The notes beneath the pieces were generated by a model. The model did no database searches, had not been told where the DNA came from, and was given only the letters and a program-made list of their open reading frames with translations. 64,000 nt of DNA. Source: Pseudomonadota bacterium. Its GTDB lineage: Bacteria > Pseudomonadota > Gammaproteobacteria > Acidiferrobacterales > UBA6901. The stretch lies in NCBI GenBank assembly GCA_021819085.1, contig JAKASJ010000010.1, positions 1-64,000 of the forward strand. Reading direction: 5' to 3'. Below, one piece after another: positions 626-8,746 of this stretch (positions are counted from its first letter, which is position 1; each line of letters begins with the position of its first letter). The translations under genes and the position numbers were made by a program.

Positions 626-1567
626 TCACTCAATCCGGGTCTCGACACGCACCTGCTTCCAGGCGGCCTCACCATCGAGGACGTTGCGCTTCGACGATCG
701 CGTTGATGCATTATCCACCAGCCGGGTCCGCTCGCATGCTTCCGATTGTGACATCGCCCGGCTTAGCGCGATCAATGCGGCGAGTATGGTGAGAAGGCTC
801 CCTGGAATCCAGATGATCATGCCCCCGATCTGCTGGTCGGTGAGCGGCGAGATCGGGAAAAATCGCCCGCAGATTTCGTAAACCGGGTAAAGATCGTGCC
901 GTGACAAGCCGATGATGGCTCCGGCCAAAATCATCGGCACCATCACGAACGTCAGCATGAGCATCCGTGCACCCTGACCCACTCGGGCTTCGGGATACGG
1001 CCGAGGGTCGAGTACCAGCCACCAGAACGGGAGATCGCTGATAACCACACTCCAATTCATCAGGGTGTAGACCCAATTACTCAGCATGGCATCGAATTGG
1101 ACCGGCGGCCACAACCAGAAGCACAAGCTTGCGACGAACATCGCTGTCGCCGTCCAGGGATCGAATATGAGCCGGGATGACGATCGAAGGGCGGCGCTCA
1201 CGCCGCGCAGACGGGCACGGACGGGCGAAGGAACACCTCTTGCGAGTGCAGAGCCCGGCGCGGAGAAGGCAAGCAGGAAGGGCCCCACGTCCTGCAGCAC
1301 GAAGTGCTGCAGGCGGTGTACGAAGAACATGTGCCCCGCGTAGTAGTCCCACTTGGTCTGAAGTGCCGCGTAGATGAGCGCAAGACCCAAGTAGAAGGCA
1401 AAGCGCCGCCTCGCCGGGGCAGGAGACACCGCATCGCGAGCGCCACGCATATATAGCATTGCCGCGACCAAGACCACTCCCAATACAGTCGGCGAGAAGT
1501 TCCAGGGAAGGAAGAAGTCAAACACGAATGTCGAATTCACAACTTTCTGTCCACAGGAAATGTCCAA
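626..1567 (-). CDS. ctaG: CtaG-type (caa3) cytochrome c oxidase assembly membrane protein
   Basis: The product is a 313-residue polytopic membrane protein with about seven hydrophobic segments. It contains FFVHRLQHFVLQDVGPFLLAF, with conserved histidines, in the first half and a DLPFWWLVLDPRPYPEARVG-like loop. These features match the CtaG_caa3 family (PF09678), which helps supply copper or assemble heme-copper oxidases in the inner membrane. The open frame begins with TTG. A GTG nine codons in is an equally possible start, and no strong ribosome binding site decides. The C-terminal 45 residues are hydrophilic and Arg/Ser-rich. No oxidase subunit gene is visible here; one may lie beyond the left edge. 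Confidence 0.75.
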   Translation of the reverse strand: MDISCGQKVVNSTFVFDFFLPWNFSPTVLGVVLVAAMLYMRGARDAVSPAPARRRFAFYLGLALIYAALQTKWDYYAGHMFFVHRLQHFVLQDVGPFLLAFSAPGSALARGVPSPVRARLRGVSAALRSSSRLIFDPWTATAMFVASLCFWLWPPVQFDAMLSNWVYTLMNWSVVISDLPFWWLVLDPRPYPEARVGQGARMLMLTFVMVPMILAGAIIGLSRHDLYPVYEICGRFFPISPLTDQQIGGMIIWIPGSLLTILAALIALSRAMSQSEACERTRLVDNASTRSSKRNVLDGEAAWKQVRVETRIE

Positions 1568-2477: not shown

Positions 2478-2702
2478 TCAGGCAACGTGGCGAACATGCT
2501 GTTCGAGAAACAGGTCTTGGATCACCCGGGGCTGCATCTGGGCCCAATACAAATGGCTGCGCACAAGGGTCATCATCTCGCCTTTGTCGCACAGGCGGCT
2601 CTTGCACAAGCCGCTGGTCTTTGCTTCATGGCTAAGCAGTTCATCCGAATTCGGTTCAGATCAATACCCCGGCAGATGAACCAGTCACAGACGTTGCACA
2701 TT
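2478..2702 (-). CDS. Small cysteine-rich protein translationally linked to the RecJ-like gene
   Basis: This is a 74-residue minus-strand frame starting MCNVCDWFICRGIDLNRIRM and ending LFLEQHVRHVA. The ribosome binding site GAGGA directly follows the TAA of the RecJ-like gene, and the ATG comes 9 bases after that stop, so the two are probably co-translated. Cysteines at 2, 5 and 10 and a second pair at 33 and 38 (GLCKSRLCDKGE) could bind a metal such as zinc. The remainder is basic and helical. I do not know the family. Its position suggests a partner or accessory of the exonuclease. Confidence 0.55.
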
Positions 2703-2711
2703 GGCTTCCTC

Positions 2712-4502
2712 TTATATGTTTTTCTCCATATTGAGCTCGATACCGCGAATCACGAGCTGTAGCCGAGTCGTGCCACGGTACGTCTGCGCATCCAAGGAAA
2801 ACGCCAGGCGGGCGATCTGGCCGATCGTCACGGGTGGTGGTGCATCAGCGAGCTTGGCGTTAAACCACACTCCCTCCGCTAAATGTGAATCCCGCGAGAG
2901 TTTGAGTTTCAGGTGGGTCTGGTCTCCGATGGGGCACAAATCGACGATGCGCCAGGTCCCGACAAACACAGGTGGATCAAACCCCCGGCCGTAAGGTTCC
3001 AGGGCCGCCAGCTCAATGACGTGATGCAGTCCGGGCGCCTCTAGATCTCCGTCGACAAGCATCGTCGGCTCAGGGACAGCTTGGCCGTATCGTTCCCGGA
3101 CACAGACATCCCAGGCGTCGGCAAGCGCCTCAATATCACATCGCCTGACTTTAAGGCCTCCGGCACCTCCATGCCCGCCGGCACTGACGAGCAAGCCCGG
3201 CCAACGTTGCTGAATCAACGTCAGCGTGTCTCGCACATGGACCACCTCCGTCGTGCGAATCGAACCCGTTGCAAGGTCAGCATCGCGTGCCGCGGGCGAC
3301 AGGCAGATGGTCGGGCAACCGAACTTCTCTACGATCCGACTAGCCGTAATGCCGTGTACCCCGGCATGCGCTGATTCACCCAGCCACAGACAAAGCCCAA
3401 TGCGCCCGGCGTCTACTGCAGCGTGTGCGATATCGATCGCCTGCCTGGTAAGCGCTCCCTCGATGGTGCGTCGTTCGCGATTGTTAGCGTCCAGCTCCTG
3501 AACCATCTCGAACGCCGTCTCCTCGTCGTCGGCGCAGAGAAACTCCACCCCGAGCATCGCATCACCCAGGCGACCGCGCGCGTTGATGCGCGTAGCAATC
3601 TGGAAGGCGATGTCCGATGAGCACCACGGGCCCTCCTTGTTCAGAAGCTGACGCATCGCATTCCAGCACGGCCGCGGCCGTTTGTTCATCAGTTGCAGTC
3701 CGCGCTGTACGATCAATCGGTTATTGCGGGACTGGCCCAGCGATGAAGCGTCGGCGATAGTTCCGACAGCACAGAAGTCCAGCAGATCCGAGACCTTGGG
3801 TATCGTGCCGGGCAGCAAGCCTCGCCGGACCAACTGCTCGCGTGTGGCGGCCATCACCAACAAGGCCGTGTGGCACCCCGCAATCGCCTTGTCGGGAAAT
3901 TGACTATCCTGTCGAACGGGATTCACAACCGCGTGGGCGGACGGCGGCGGACCCTCCTCAGGAATGCCGTGGTGATCGGTAACCACTACAAGATGGCCCG
4001 CCGCCCGAAGCCGCGCGATCCTGTTTTCATCGGAACTGCCCTGGTCGGCCGTAATGATGCACGTGCCGGGCCTGAGCTGCGGCAGCACGCGGTCGATGAA
4101 TGCGTCACTAACCCCATAGCCCTCCGTCATCCGGTGTGACAGGTACCCCGACACTTGTTCAGGCGCGACGCCCCACTGCTTCAAGGAAAGCCGAATAATG
4201 GCGTGCGACGTGGCCCCGTCGGCATCATGATCGGTCACGATCGCGATCGGAGCCGCGTTTTCGACGGCATCGGCGAGCAGCCCGGCTGCAATGTCGATAT
4301 CCGGCAGGCTGTCTGGCGCGTCGAGGTCGGCAGCACTCGGTCGGACCAGCGAAGACAGCGGCCGGGAAAGATCAGATATTCGCCCCGCTAAGACCCGCGC
4401 CTGGATTGGTGTATATCCGAGCGCCAACGCAGCGGCCTCGACCGCCGCGTTTCTTGGCCGCACTTTCAGGCGGGGCGAGGGTGCTTTCCCATGGGCAGTC
4501 AT
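2712..4502 (-). CDS. Divergent RecJ-like DHH-family single-strand exonuclease
   Basis: The 596-residue product has the RecJ layout. Motif I DHDADGATS is at residues 91-99, an Asp motif TADQGSS near 151-157, and the DHH signature VVTDHHGIP at 173-181. An ARINARGRLGDA block is near 304-315, the DHHA1 signature GGHGGAGGL at 442-450, and the C-terminal region resembles an OB fold. Such enzymes degrade single-stranded DNA 5' to 3' with manganese or magnesium during repair and recombination. It differs from housekeeping RecJ, which has DFDADG, TVDNGIS and GGHAMAAG at these sites. It resembles instead the RecJ paralogs found on plasmids and integrative elements. Small genes flank it on both sides on the same strand. 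Catalytic residues appear intact. Confidence 0.75.
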   Translation of the reverse strand: MTAHGKAPSPRLKVRPRNAAVEAAALALGYTPIQARVLAGRISDLSRPLSSLVRPSAADLDAPDSLPDIDIAAGLLADAVENAAPIAIVTDHDADGATSHAIIRLSLKQWGVAPEQVSGYLSHRMTEGYGVSDAFIDRVLPQLRPGTCIITADQGSSDENRIARLRAAGHLVVVTDHHGIPEEGPPPSAHAVVNPVRQDSQFPDKAIAGCHTALLVMAATREQLVRRGLLPGTIPKVSDLLDFCAVGTIADASSLGQSRNNRLIVQRGLQLMNKRPRPCWNAMRQLLNKEGPWCSSDIAFQIATRINARGRLGDAMLGVEFLCADDEETAFEMVQELDANNRERRTIEGALTRQAIDIAHAAVDAGRIGLCLWLGESAHAGVHGITASRIVEKFGCPTICLSPAARDADLATGSIRTTEVVHVRDTLTLIQQRWPGLLVSAGGHGGAGGLKVRRCDIEALADAWDVCVRERYGQAVPEPTMLVDGDLEAPGLHHVIELAALEPYGRGFDPPVFVGTWRIVDLCPIGDQTHLKLKLSRDSHLAEGVWFNAKLADAPPPVTIGQIARLAFSLDAQTYRGTTRLQLVIRGIELNMEKNI

Positions 4503-4523
4503 GGCTTCACCACTCCCGCGTGA

Positions 4524-4736
4524 TCATGCGATTGAAACGCCGTGCGGCACTTTCAGACTCGCGGGCCCATGCGTCGCAGGCAGAGCTCCGGCCTTCTTCA
4601 ATGAGATGCGCAGTTGGGCCTTTTCGTGCTCCCATTGGGTCTTGGCCCAGTCCCAGACAAATGTCCCGCCGGTCTCCGGGTTCTTCTTCTGACAATCGAA
4701 AGATCGTCCGTCTATATCCATGTGAAGAGGGGGCAC
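4524..4736 (-). CDS. Small protein upstream of the RecJ-like gene, unknown
   Basis: This frame of 70 codons starts at GTG (4736), or more likely at the ATG at 4721 (MDIDGRSFDCQKKNPETGG). It reads on through FVWDWAKTQWEHEKAQLRIS and ends 21 bases before the RecJ-like start. The amino-acid use looks genuinely coding and charged, with many Trp and Lys residues. No ribosome binding site precedes either start. The frame may therefore be the 3' half of a gene whose 5' half lies in another frame at 4737-4974. No family is recognised. Confidence 0.45.
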   Translation of the reverse strand: MPPLHMDIDGRSFDCQKKNPETGGTFVWDWAKTQWEHEKAQLRISLKKAGALPATHGPASLKVPHGVSIA

Positions 4737-4974
4737 AGTTCAGGCTCTTGTGTTGTTCGAGGACGGAAGCAGGTACTGGCAGCAGTCGCGCCTTTCCCTC
4801 CGGAATGCGATCGCCTGGCAGGAACTGTTTCTGGGTAAAGTCCCGACGGAAGGACTCCTGCCGTTCGATTCGCGTCTGGAGATGTGCTGCCGCATTCCAT
4901 TCGAGATCCTTCACGTCAGTGAACGGCAATGAACTCATAGGCCCGCGGAAATCGCTGGGCGAAAGCGGATACAT
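4737..4974 (-). CDS. 5' half of a probably frameshifted small gene
   Basis: An ATG at 4974 (MYPLSPSDFRGP) opens a frame that looks coding for about 80 residues (TDVKDLEWNAAAHLQTRIER, then RIPEGKARLLPVPASVLEQ). It continues to 4507, but only as a shadow of the frame at 4524-4736. A one-base shift near 4725 would fuse both halves into a product of about 150 residues. Alternatively these are two overlapping genes. It begins 45 bases after the rpfE stop on the same strand. Confidence 0.4.
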
Positions 4975-5019
4975 GGCCTCAATTGGCGGCAGGCAGCGCC
5001 TTCCTTTACGCCTGCCTCC

Positions 5020-6075
5020 TCACCCATAGCAGGAAAGCGGCCGGCGGCGACGCCACCAGCGCCGCAGGTCGGTTCGGACGAGTCGCCTTCCGGTGCCACG
5101 CTCCGAATACAAAGCGAGGCTCGCGATGTCGCCCGCACGCAGGGCACCGAGCAGCGGCGACAGCCACCGCTGCTCGAAGCATTCGACGGACTGCCGCCAT
5201 GCGGTACCATCGCCACGCTGCCCGATCGCTGGCCCGGGTTCGAATGCCAGCAGATGGGCACCAGCCGCATCGGCGGCCTGCAGCCAGTCCTCTGCCCCAG
5301 GCGGCAGGGCATGCAGGCCTGCGCCGGCCAGCTGCCCCAGTCCGCGGGCGAGCGGCCCGTCGCTCCAGACCGCGCTCCACGTTCCCTGCCCGACGCGCGG
5401 GAGCACACCTCCACCCCAGAACCACAGGCTGTTCACCGGAGGCCGCCCGCGCTGCTCACGTTCGGCATTGAGCGGCGAGACATGGAGCAGCAGCTGAACC
5501 TCGGTGAGCAGCGTGTGCCAGAACCGGGCATCCGGCCCGCCGGGCAGGTAGTCGCCGATATCCCTGCCCCAGACCTCGTCGACACTGTGGGTGTGAATGT
5601 GCGCCGGCTCCGTTGACCGCAGGTACCAGCGATGCGGCTGCAACACCTGAAGCCTCCAGCGATCCGGCGTAAAAACCTGCCCGAGCTCTGCGACCAGACG
5701 CAATGATTCTTCCCGCGAAAGATCCAGCAGTTCGCTGCCACCCAGAATCAGCCCCGCTCCGCGGGGGGAAAGATGGACCGGATCAGCACGAATCCACCAT
5801 TCTCCGTCACTGACACCGCTGTCGGCCAGGAGCGTGGTTGCCGCCACCGGCAGATCGTCCACGCCCGTGGCATGGATGCCGAACAGAGCGCACAGCAGCG
5901 CCTCGCCGGTCTGTGCGGACAGCCCGTGCTGACCGGCGCCAGGCGCATCTGGCGCTACCGGATTTGCGCGCGCGAGCAGCTTTTCCAACGCCGGCGCGCG
6001 CGGAGCCGGCACCGTGTCTTCGGGCGGCGGCGCTCTGAAGAGCCCGGGCACAACAAGGGTCAGATGTCTTTCCAC
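5020..6075 (-). CDS. rpfE: RpfE/COG4255 family protein (phosphoglycerate mutase-like)
   Basis: The product is 351 residues, soluble and rich in Trp and Gly, with GEWWIRADPVHLSPRGAGLI, DYLPGGPDARFWHTLLTEVQ and PVNSLWFWGGG. These blocks identify the family often annotated as cofactor-independent phosphoglycerate mutase-like or RpfE, of unknown biochemical role. In Xanthomonas and many gammaproteobacteria the gene is adjacent to recJ. Here the next gene on the strand is instead the divergent RecJ-like cassette. It lies about 200 bases after thrC on the same strand. Confidence 0.75.
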   Translation of the reverse strand: MERHLTLVVPGLFRAPPPEDTVPAPRAPALEKLLARANPVAPDAPGAGQHGLSAQTGEALLCALFGIHATGVDDLPVAATTLLADSGVSDGEWWIRADPVHLSPRGAGLILGGSELLDLSREESLRLVAELGQVFTPDRWRLQVLQPHRWYLRSTEPAHIHTHSVDEVWGRDIGDYLPGGPDARFWHTLLTEVQLLLHVSPLNAEREQRGRPPVNSLWFWGGGVLPRVGQGTWSAVWSDGPLARGLGQLAGAGLHALPPGAEDWLQAADAAGAHLLAFEPGPAIGQRGDGTAWRQSVECFEQRWLSPLLGALRAGDIASLALYSERGTGRRLVRTDLRRWWRRRRPLSCYG

Positions 6076-6277
6076 GCTCCGCTTTCAACCGGCCGGAGTC
6101 CAAACGGACCCGGCCACTGCCTCCGAGGAACTGCCGACATGGTACGCCGGTTACCGCCCGCCGGAACCACCGGAAAGACACTTCGATACGTCTCAGGACC
6201 TTGACCCCGCCGCCAGACCGGACTGGGCTGACGTCCCGGAATGTGCAGCGCCCGCGGCGCAGCCGCCGTGCTGACAG

Positions 6278-7420
6278 CTAGGCGAGATTATCCAGGATCG
6301 CGCGCTTGACGGCAGCCAGCTCGGCCTGCACTTTGATCAGCGGCCTGGTGCTCTGCTTGATTGCGATGTCCGGATCCTTCAGCCCATGTCCTGTCAGCGT
6401 ACATACGACGCTGCTGCCTGCAGGAATCCGGCCGTTGCGCACGTCGCGCAGGGCGCCAGCCAGCGAGGTCGCTGACGCCGGCTCGCAGAACACGCCTTCC
6501 TTTTCGGCCAGCAGCTTCTGCGCTGCCAAAATTTCCTCGTCCCGGCATTCATCGAACCAGCCGCCCGATTCCTCGATGACTTTCCAGGCGCTGTCCCAGG
6601 ACTGCGGGTGCCCGATGCGGATGGCGGTAGCCACCGTCTCCGGATCATCCACCATCCGGCCGCGCAGAAACGGAGCGCTTCCGGCAGCCTGGTAACCGAC
6701 CATATGTGGACGGTTCCCGACCACCGCGCCTCCGGCATAAAGGCATTTGCCCTTGCAGAACACGCAGGCGGCCGTGACGTTTTCGCCCGATGCAGACGAG
6801 ACCTCGCAGTAGCCGATCCAGTGCGCCGTGATATTGCCCGCGTTCCCGACCGGCAGGCAGTGAAAGTCCGGAGCCCGGCCCAGCTCCTCGATGATCTCGA
6901 AGGCAGCGGTCTTTTGCCCCTGCAGCCGGTAGGGATTGATCGAATTGACGATTGTGACCGGTGCCTCCTGGGCGACTTCCTTCACCAGCGCCATGCCGGC
7001 ATCGAAATTTCCCTGGATCTGGATCACCACGGCGCCGTGGATCATGGCCTGGGCAAGCTTGCCCAGTGCGATCTTGCCCTCCGGAATCAGTACGAAACAG
7101 CTGATCCCGGCGCGTGCGGCATAGGCCGCCGCCGCCGCAGAGGTATTTCCGGTCGAAGCGCAGATGATCGCACGGCTTCCCTCCTCCACTGCTTTGGTCA
7201 CGGCCATGGTCATGCCCCGGTCCTTGAACGATCCGGTCGGGTTGAGGCCTTCGTATTTCACGTAGATTTCGACCTTGTCGCCCAGCGACCGGGGAATGTT
7301 GCTCAGACGGATGAGCGGCGTATTGCCCTCACCCAGGCTGATGATGCGCGTGTCGTCATGCACCGGCAGGCGGTCGCGATATCTTTCAATAAGGCCGGTG
7401 TAGCGTTGATGCGATGTCAT
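6278..7420 (-). CDS. thrC: Threonine synthase, short type, with a Cys-rich insertion
   Basis: This PLP enzyme converts O-phosphohomoserine to threonine in the cytoplasm. The PLP lysine lies in [11 protein letters not shown] (Lys66), the phosphate loop is VGNAGNIT at 191-198, and [19 protein letters not shown] follows the family closely. At 380 residues it is about 25 longer than the Bacillus-type enzyme. The excess is one block at about 205-236 ([20 protein letters not shown]) between the GY.E and GYQAAG motifs, where relatives have a loop of about 8. It holds a CxxCxxxC arrangement. The gene starts 3 bases after hom, so the two form an operon with alaC. Confidence 0.9.
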
Positions 7421-7423
7421 GAT

Positions 7424-8746
7424 TCACTTCCAGTCTCGGTTCAGGTGCTCGACGCGGATGCGCATGACCTTGCCATTGATAGAATCGAGCGCCTCGATGC
7501 GTGCAATCGCCTGGTTCATGTTCCTTTCGAGCACACGGTGGGTAAGCAGTATCACGGGCACTTCGTTCGCACCCGCAGACGGCTCCTTCTGGATGATCGC
7601 CTCAATGCTGATGCCGAGATCAGCCAGGATGCGCGTGACGTCAGCCAGCACCCCGAGCTGGTCCTTCGCCTGCATGCGCAGATAACAGGCGGTCTGCACC
7701 TCTTCCATGGGCAGGATCGCGACATCCGACAGCTGGTCCGGCTGGAACGCCAGATGGGGCACCCGGTTGGTCGGATCGGCCGTGAGCGTGCGCACCACAT
7801 CGACGATATCGGCCACCACGGCCGAGGCGGTTGGTTCGGCACCAGCACCGGCGCCGTAATACATCGTTGCGCCCACGGCGTCGCCCTTCACCAGTATGGC
7901 ATTCATGACGCCGTCGACGCTTGCAATCAGCCTGCGTTCGGGGATCAGGGTCGGGTGCACACGCAGCTCTACACCACGGCTGGTCCGACGTGCGATGCCG
8001 AGATGCTTGATCCGGTAACCGAGCTCCTCGGCATAGGACACGTCGCTGCGAGTAATGCGGGTGATGCCCTCCGTGTAGACTTTGTCGAACTGCAGCGGAA
8101 TGCCGAAGGCGATCGCCGACAAAATGGTCAGCTTGTGCGCGGCATCGATGCCCTCCACGTCGAATGTGGGATCGGCCTCGGCGTATCCAAGCCGCTGGGC
8201 CTCGGCCAGGACATCGGAAAACTCGCGGCCATGGTCGCGCATTTCGGTAAGAATGAAATTGCCGGTGCCGTTGATGATCCCCGCCAGCCATTCTATGCGG
8301 TTTCCGGCCAATCCCTCGCGAATGGTCTTGATGATCGGAATGCCGCCGGCGACTGCCGCCTCGAACGCGACCATTACACCTTTCTTGCGGGCGACGGCGA
8401 AGATTTCGTTGCCGTGTGCGGCGATCAGCGCCTTGTTTGCGGTCACGACATGCTTGCCGTTGTCGATCGCTCGCATCACGAGCCTGCGCGCCGGATCGTC
8501 GCCACCGATCAGTTCGACTACGACATCGATCTGCGGGTCGTCGACCACCTCGAACGGATCGGCCGTCAGGCGTATGCCGTCCATCGGGCAGGGTCGCGTC
8601 CGGCCGATATCGCGGGCAGCAGCATGGACCACGCGGATCTCGCGCCCCGCGCGCCGCGCGATCTCGGCGCCATTGCGCGCCAGGACGTTCACCATCCCGG
8701 CGCCCACCGTTCCCAGTCCCAGCAGGCCGATTCTTACGGGTTCCAC
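7424..8746 (-). CDS. hom: Homoserine dehydrogenase
   Basis: The product is a 440-residue NAD(P)-dependent enzyme that reduces aspartate semialdehyde to homoserine, the branch point toward threonine and methionine. The Rossmann motif GLLGLGTVGAGMVNVL is at the N terminus. The catalytic region (GIINGTGNFILTEM, EADPTFDVEGIDAAHKLTIL) is followed by a C-terminal ACT domain (LGVLADVTRILADLGISIEA) that usually senses threonine. Translation begins at a GTG that overlaps the alaC stop by one base (TAGTG), indicating translational coupling. The length is normal for the monofunctional enzyme. Confidence 0.95.
   Translation of the reverse strand: MEPVRIGLLGLGTVGAGMVNVLARNGAEIARRAGREIRVVHAAARDIGRTRPCPMDGIRLTADPFEVVDDPQIDVVVELIGGDDPARRLVMRAIDNGKHVVTANKALIAAHGNEIFAVARKKGVMVAFEAAVAGGIPIIKTIREGLAGNRIEWLAGIINGTGNFILTEMRDHGREFSDVLAEAQRLGYAEADPTFDVEGIDAAHKLTILSAIAFGIPLQFDKVYTEGITRITRSDVSYAEELGYRIKHLGIARRTSRGVELRVHPTLIPERRLIASVDGVMNAILVKGDAVGATMYYGAGAGAEPTASAVVADIVDVVRTLTADPTNRVPHLAFQPDQLSDVAILPMEEVQTACYLRMQAKDQLGVLADVTRILADLGISIEAIIQKEPSAGANEVPVILLTHRVLERNMNQAIARIEALDSINGKVMRIRVEHLNRDWK

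Follow-up and report, generated by a model that had tools for sequence, protein, structure and literature searches.

In the stretch of DNA analysed here (the window, 64,000 nucleotides), a gene for a RecJ-like protein bearing the motifs DHDADG, TADQGSS and GGHGGAGG follows an rpfE homologue, as a preliminary description had recorded. Its position raises the question of whether a housekeeping recJ has diverged in place or has been replaced and, if it was replaced, from which source and by which route. Comparison with related genomes, phylogenetic analysis and a survey of islands inserted into recJ lead us to a reading that we consider likely: the window RecJ is a substitute, retained from a mobile island whose arrival destroyed the recJ of the chromosome. 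The features on which the argument draws are as follows, with G003 denoting a sister genome.

1-127, no strand: repeat present in several copies (99-100% matches elsewhere in the genome), at which the contig ends and the assembly breaks
626-1567, minus strand: CtaG-like cytochrome oxidase assembly gene (Pfam Caa3_CtaG, 171 bits)
2712-4502, minus strand: island-type RecJ, 596 amino acids (open reading frame; Pfam DHH and RecJ_OB; TIGR00644, 342.7 bits)
4503-5017, minus strand: stretch separating rpfE from RecJ, foreign or remodelled (no G003 match; contains the open reading frame 4507-4974)
5018, no strand: breakpoint at which G003 homology ends, 2 bp past the rpfE stop codon (blastn)
5020-6075, minus strand: rpfE homologue, natively to the left of recJ (adjoins canonical recJ in genomes G001, G003, G005 and G006)

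The RecJ gene and its flanks

The gene is intact, with 596 codons, and its product belongs to the broad RecJ nuclease family by its domains, its Asp and His residues and its fold. Pfam DHH and RecJ_OB score over their cut-offs and DHHA1 slightly under (23.2 versus 25.9 bits), and the protein falls below the curated cut-off of the housekeeping RecJ equivalog TIGR00644 of NCBIfam (342.7 versus 396.9 bits). Residues D91, D93, D95, D153, D176, H177, H178 and D251 are invariant across 26 aligned rows; the Asp and His residues of the RecJ DHH motifs are, we assume, catalytic. The AlphaFold model has a mean pLDDT of 91.2, and its top Foldseek matches are solved RecJs, the first being that of Staphylococcus aureus (query-normalised TM 0.83). 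Fold and conserved residues together predict that the window RecJ is likely to be an active nuclease. Codon usage is not usable as evidence of a foreign origin (rpfE scores 0.07 and RecJ 0.02), because the four high-scoring genes are the training set and rpfE, outside that set, itself scores only 0.07.

The open reading frame at 5020-6075, which we take to be rpfE (a name kept from the preliminary description), has no Pfam match and weak phosphoglycerate-mutase-like matches in NCBIfam. By blastn, the window is 94.3% identical to G003 over 5018-8000, with no match beyond. The intervening 155-residue frame (4507-4974) has no match in Pfam, NCBIfam or PHROG and none among plasmids at E≤0.01, and, since its weak codon signal switches frame part-way, it does not count as an established intact gene. 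On the other side of RecJ, the frames 1961-2275 and 1866-2114, between 1568 and 2711, lack Pfam matches. The small flanking genes of the preliminary description are frames without a family match, of which the 155-residue one may not be an intact gene, and the suggestion that they travel with RecJ was rejected for lack of support.

The next recognisable gene beyond RecJ is the CtaG-like one, in a region without a blastn match to the corresponding G003 stretch (L040); it lies within the replaced stretch and is possibly cargo. Among the tblastx matches listed between this flank and the other loci, all are short and scattered, and we judged them to be noise. A 138-bp stretch (2057-2194) has a second copy, 93% identical, on contig C73 of the same genome (8108-8245). 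The terminal repeat recurs at six other genomic places, five of them contig ends, and the left flank is cut off there since window base 1 is base 1 of its contig, C31.

A broken canonical recJ in the same genome

In G003, rpfE, canonical recJ and cysM lie in this order on one contig. The window genome (G000) retains canonical recJ as an eroded 3′ relic ahead of cysM on another contig, C48, which resumes homology to G003 at recJ codon 282 and continues it through cysM. Over the part that survives, the relic is 87% identical to the G003 gene, and it has deletions of 22 and 41 bp and an in-frame TAA. Contigs C31 and C48 each end in a repeat recurring at six other places, and their adjacency is therefore deduced from synteny with G003. 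A second, canonical recJ, the check proposed at the outset, was thus found in relic form with no intact copy: in an assembly estimated to be 99.98% complete and 0.85% contaminated, the gene at 2712-4502 is the sole intact RecJ found, and there is no further RecJ match besides it and the relic.

The premise that recJ usually adjoins rpfE held in four of the six related genomes searched, in which an rpfE homologue lies directly beside canonical recJ; in the other two, G004 has the gene replaced and in G002 the place was not found. In G002, rpfE and RecJ are unmatched and the cysM matches are weak (23-36% identity), and the recJ locus is probably missing from the assembly. In the congener G004, the whole change lies on a single contig, on which rpfE is followed by foreign DNA with an island-type RecJ and then cysM. 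The order is rpfE, an IS607-type resolvase with TnpB, a 502-residue open reading frame, RecJ and cysM; RecJ runs opposite to rpfE and cysM, and the profiles detect no adjacent recombinase module. Canonical recJ was not found in G004. The IS607-type resolvase and TnpB gene (locus L042, 12105-13943) occupies part of the former recJ locus.

A RecJ from outside the canonical clade

We extracted 136 RecJ sequences from 127 loci (nine loci gave two) and placed 60 of them in a first tree. Its 18 canonical rows form one clade (support 100/100) that leaves the window RecJ outside, and an approximately unbiased (AU) test on a second tree of 57 rows, from which three long rows had been removed, rejects its placement with the canonical group, a group named after the first tree (P = 0.0014). 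The tree placement called for earlier thus separates the window RecJ from the housekeeping RecJs of close relatives. That the gene is a fast-evolving housekeeping recJ, or that the relic stems from a contaminating strain, is hardly credible: adjacency to the rpfE homologue and the native gene's orientation speak for the former, but the canonical recJ of G003 at the same place, the relic's resemblance to it, the tree and the AU test speak against it, and the low estimated contamination against the latter. Unless the assembly is wrong, the relic and the AU test contradict a housekeeping RecJ diverged in place, and we reject it. Replacement of recJ in the window genome by a RecJ of another lineage is well supported, and the earlier proposal that an element-type RecJ had taken the place of recJ agrees both with the relic and with the occurrence of relatives on large plasmids and islands.

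In the same 60-row tree, the window RecJ is sister to a RecJ carried by an island in the metagenome-assembled genome (MAG) Bin_66_1 (100/100), with 62% identity, a dN of 0.35 and a dS that is not estimable. In G004, recJ has given way to a G036-type RecJ, which forms a pair with the island RecJ of genome G036 itself (100/100). The island RecJs of G019 and G039 are sister to a clade of six rows, comprising Acidithiobacillus and one related MAG (100/100).

RecJ matches occur in 57 of 60 relatives, over the cut-off in 43, and near-full-length matches at 330-340 bits occur in four (G004, G019, G036 and G039); a class-wide search matched 325 of 369 genomes, 295 of them over the cut-off. A RecJ from the non-canonical side of the tree is the sole RecJ match in six of six Halomonadaceae genomes tested. 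In Acidithiobacillus montserratensis, such a RecJ lies between rpfE-like and prfB/lysS-like genes (the latter named from sequence starts), without an island. RecJs of this type can therefore serve as the only RecJ, and the preliminary description's 'strongly diverged' should be read with care in view of the same-side RecJs of Halomonadaceae. Acidithiobacillus marinus (G071, locus L081) carries a canonical RecJ (486 bits) plus one of the other type (334 bits); the three congeners tested (G065, G067 and G068) have the non-canonical type only.

A tblastn search with the window RecJ matched 158 plasmid records, 79 at no less than 80% query coverage. The best plasmid RecJs (42-44% identity, 92-97% coverage) reside on large plasmids of Xanthomonas, Rhodanobacter and Dyella and fall on the same side of the tree as the window RecJ. 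In the six such loci viewed, HU-like genes occur in three and MobH/TraD in two, and profiles detect no recombinase module in any. These relatives, and the lack of recombinase genes at the window locus, favour a plasmid origin, in which illegitimate or homology-assisted recombination moved RecJ off a large plasmid into recJ with no recombinase island involved. We regard this as decidedly unlikely, as the nearest relative is island-borne and paired with the window RecJ at full support, and the plasmid RecJs stand on other branches at loci that match no recombinase profile (0 of 6). A phage origin was also considered and rejected: among the 40 of 60 records listed, identity is 23-35% and coverage at most 86%, and a scan of viral contigs gave one relative, at 27%.

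Islands that split recJ and carry a RecJ

In Bin_66_1 (G060), recJ is split by an island of about 28 kb that lies with both gene halves on one contig, in the order rpfE, recJ N-half, recombinase module, RecJ, about 21 kb of cargo and recJ C-half. The module comprises tyrosine-recombinase-like genes of 415, 532 and 704 residues followed by a 172-residue fourth gene, the stop codon of which overlaps the RecJ start; the N-half of the host protein ends GTVAD and the C-half resumes KADLVPLD. The cargo includes a SMODS/AGS_C nucleotidyltransferase, a kind known from anti-phage signalling (L061, 11817-13196 onward; L142/L143), and a type I methyltransferase with an HsdM domain, beside an IS21-like pair and further open reading frames.

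Two further genomes have recJ split inside motif I. In G019, one contig ends with rpfE and the N-half of recJ, and the module, RecJ, cargo, recJ C-half and cysM lie on another, the two overlapping by exactly 127 bases; GATGCCG occurs on both sides of the split. In G036, rpfE, the N-half, module and RecJ share one contig and the C-half and cysM another. G039 has the same right junction as G019 and, with it, a RecJ and the terminal part of recombinase gene three. In all four genomes with a module and a RecJ beside it (G060, G019, G036 and G039), recJ is split or truncated, a count drawn from islands of three unlike kinds in a search that began from RecJ, so that islands in recJ lacking a RecJ would escape it. 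The truncated recJ genes of G031, G035, G043 and G047 lie at contig ends and prove nothing about islands; no second RecJ was seen in G047.

In the window genome, a RecJ of the kind that such islands carry stands in place of the broken recJ, which suggests that recJ islands compensate for the gene they disrupt with one of their own. A rival reading gives RecJ a part in how the island handles its DNA (a circular intermediate, for instance) and not in replacing the host enzyme. That the Bin_66_1 RecJ starts within the stop codon of the fourth gene, as if co-transcribed, accords with such a role, as does the presence of RecJ on plasmids whose hosts are not those of the islands. Yet all four module-borne RecJs lie in a split or truncated recJ, RecJ has outlived the module in the window genome and in G004, a homologous module on a Pseudomonas putida plasmid has no annotated RecJ in the 20 kb viewed, and genomic islands with three integrases (GInts) move with no RecJ mentioned in the part of their published account used here (PMC5385486). 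We therefore think an island-processing role improbable and keep the reading of RecJ as a host substitute, which also fits better than the specialised exonuclease system once suggested for this locus.

Recombinase modules and known elements

The islands of Bin_66_1, G019 and G036 each have, at one end, a tandem of three recombinase-like genes and a small fourth gene (ginA to ginD, or genes A to D). The modules are mutually dissimilar: the best BLASTP E value is 0.08 for genes A, C and D, and the matches for gene B are weak and partial (best E = 8e-5). Pfam Phage_integrase scores over its cut-off in ginA of all three islands and in ginB of G036, and more weakly in Bin_66_1 ginB (22.7 bits) and ginC (18.0 bits); no Pfam match was found for G019 ginB and ginC or for G036 ginC. 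Gene by gene, the Bin_66_1 module is 33, 36, 31 and 24% identical to that of the P. putida plasmid. Profiles built from these four modules were run on the open frames of 96 sequences, a scan that modules of an unlike kind would escape. Those of genes A and C match, besides the P. putida plasmid, only G060, G019, G036 and G039; that of gene B also matches weakly in 53 other loci (29-35 bits), where the genes are probably recombinases of the XerC/D type.

GInts are defined by ginABCD (Bardaji et al. 2017, PMC5385486), and the targets named in the sections consulted are an ABC transporter gene and ssb. The recJ islands resemble them, as described there, in the three recombinase-like genes and small gene at one end, in cargo starting from the fourth-gene stop, in an AT-rich far end (44.5-53% AT over the last 200 bp of the island, versus 31-38% in the recJ C-half) and in short imperfect junction repeats (GATGCCG, clear in G019; look-alikes, less clear, in G036 and Bin_66_1). 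In sequence, the modules were compared with that of the P. putida plasmid, which shares this layout. Unlike the GInts in that account, these islands lie inside recJ and carry RecJ as first cargo. A further system shares, by its description in the part consulted, several recombinases and a small auxiliary gene (PMC10214605).

Similar in principle is Tn552-II, a 9-kb S. aureus element in which, according to the sections of the report seen, a tnpABC trio precedes a gene resembling the insertion target (yolD-like/CDS40) (Wan et al. 2025, PMC12486829). The recJ islands likewise place a homologue of the target gene behind a recombinase trio; as far as that partial account goes, they differ in targeting a repair gene and in reaching about 28 kb. 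A transposon carrying its target's homologue is therefore already known, and recJ as target with an island-borne RecJ is a new variant. No description of this variant was found in the best-ranked, mostly open-access literature: recJ is absent from the main texts of PMC5385486 and PMC10214605, and the parts seen of PMC8321556 and PMC4978471 concern pneumococcal insertions in the vicinity of recJ and a core gene table that lists RecJ, not a recJ island.

Origin of the window locus

The window copy differs from GInts in that the module is absent. Open frames of at least 100 residues in the window and C48 have no match to the module profiles, and the locus has no ginABCD; Bin_66_1-type ginB was not found in G000 in a search that recovered it from G060 as positive control, and Bin_66_1-type ginC was not found there in a search run without such a control. 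As no recombinase genes were found at the locus to show it directly, descent from a GInt-type island is inferred, and we consider it probable.

We propose that islands fronted by GInt-like modules insert into codons of recJ's conserved catalytic motifs, as the insertion sites seen in three cases indicate, and that the RecJ carried immediately after the fourth gene, complete and from another lineage, would offset the loss of recJ at once. In the window genome, the recJ lying between rpfE and cysM would have received such an island; deletions and insertions of repeats would afterwards have removed the recombinase genes, the 5′ half of recJ and much else, leaving the island RecJ as the sole RecJ. 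Judged by its fold and conserved residues, this protein is expected to act in repair as an ordinary 5′-3′ single-strand DNA exonuclease.

Descent from an island is favoured by the place and orientation of the gene, the broken recJ, the repeats at both contig ends and the island-borne closest relative. Against it stand the lack of a recombinase gene in G000, the modest 62% identity to the island sister and the indirect adjacency of C31 and C48; moreover, the relic starts at codon 282 and not at motif I or IV, so an extra deletion is needed. The G004 RecJ, inverted and without a module, the small number of islands (three, all unlike) and the presence of the RecJ type at the rpfE locus of Acidithiobacillus without an island, where transfer may have run in either direction, also weigh against the island reading. 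The broader proposal is that self-compensating islands recur: unlike modules would have converged on recJ motif codons and on a substitute RecJ, those at motif I recoded at the site, with permanent core-gene swaps in the window genome and, independently, in G004. We advance it tentatively, as slightly less than an even prospect.

If so, a core recombination-repair gene would be replaceable in a single step, since the disrupting element itself supplies the substitute, and such swaps could account for patchy RecJ phylogenies. The effect would be addiction-like: once the host recJ has decayed, the island RecJ cannot be lost.

Recoding of motif I in island RecJs

The recJ targets read DADG at motif I, and the six Acidithiobacillus-clade sisters of the G019/G039 RecJ read DFDADG. 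The island RecJs read DFDCDG in G019 and G039 and DHDMDG in G036 (L047, L046), and this recoding (DCDG, DMDG) means that the GATGCCG core is absent from the island's own RecJ gene. Among 133 motif I extracts, which include repeats and canonical rows, the residue at this place is Val in 64, Ala in 49, Cys in 14, Thr in 3, Met in 2 and Ser in 1. Recoding may possibly protect the island from inserting into its own RecJ, a hypothesis that draws on two lineages and on a place at which Val or Cys is common. The proposed replacement by islands predicts more generally that an element which interrupts the coding region of an important gene should bring along a homologue of it, recoded where the element inserts.

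Contig C93 of G047 (L159) ends exactly within recJ motif I, its first bases being GACGGCGCGACC; this is the same place as the cut site of the G019 and G036 islands.
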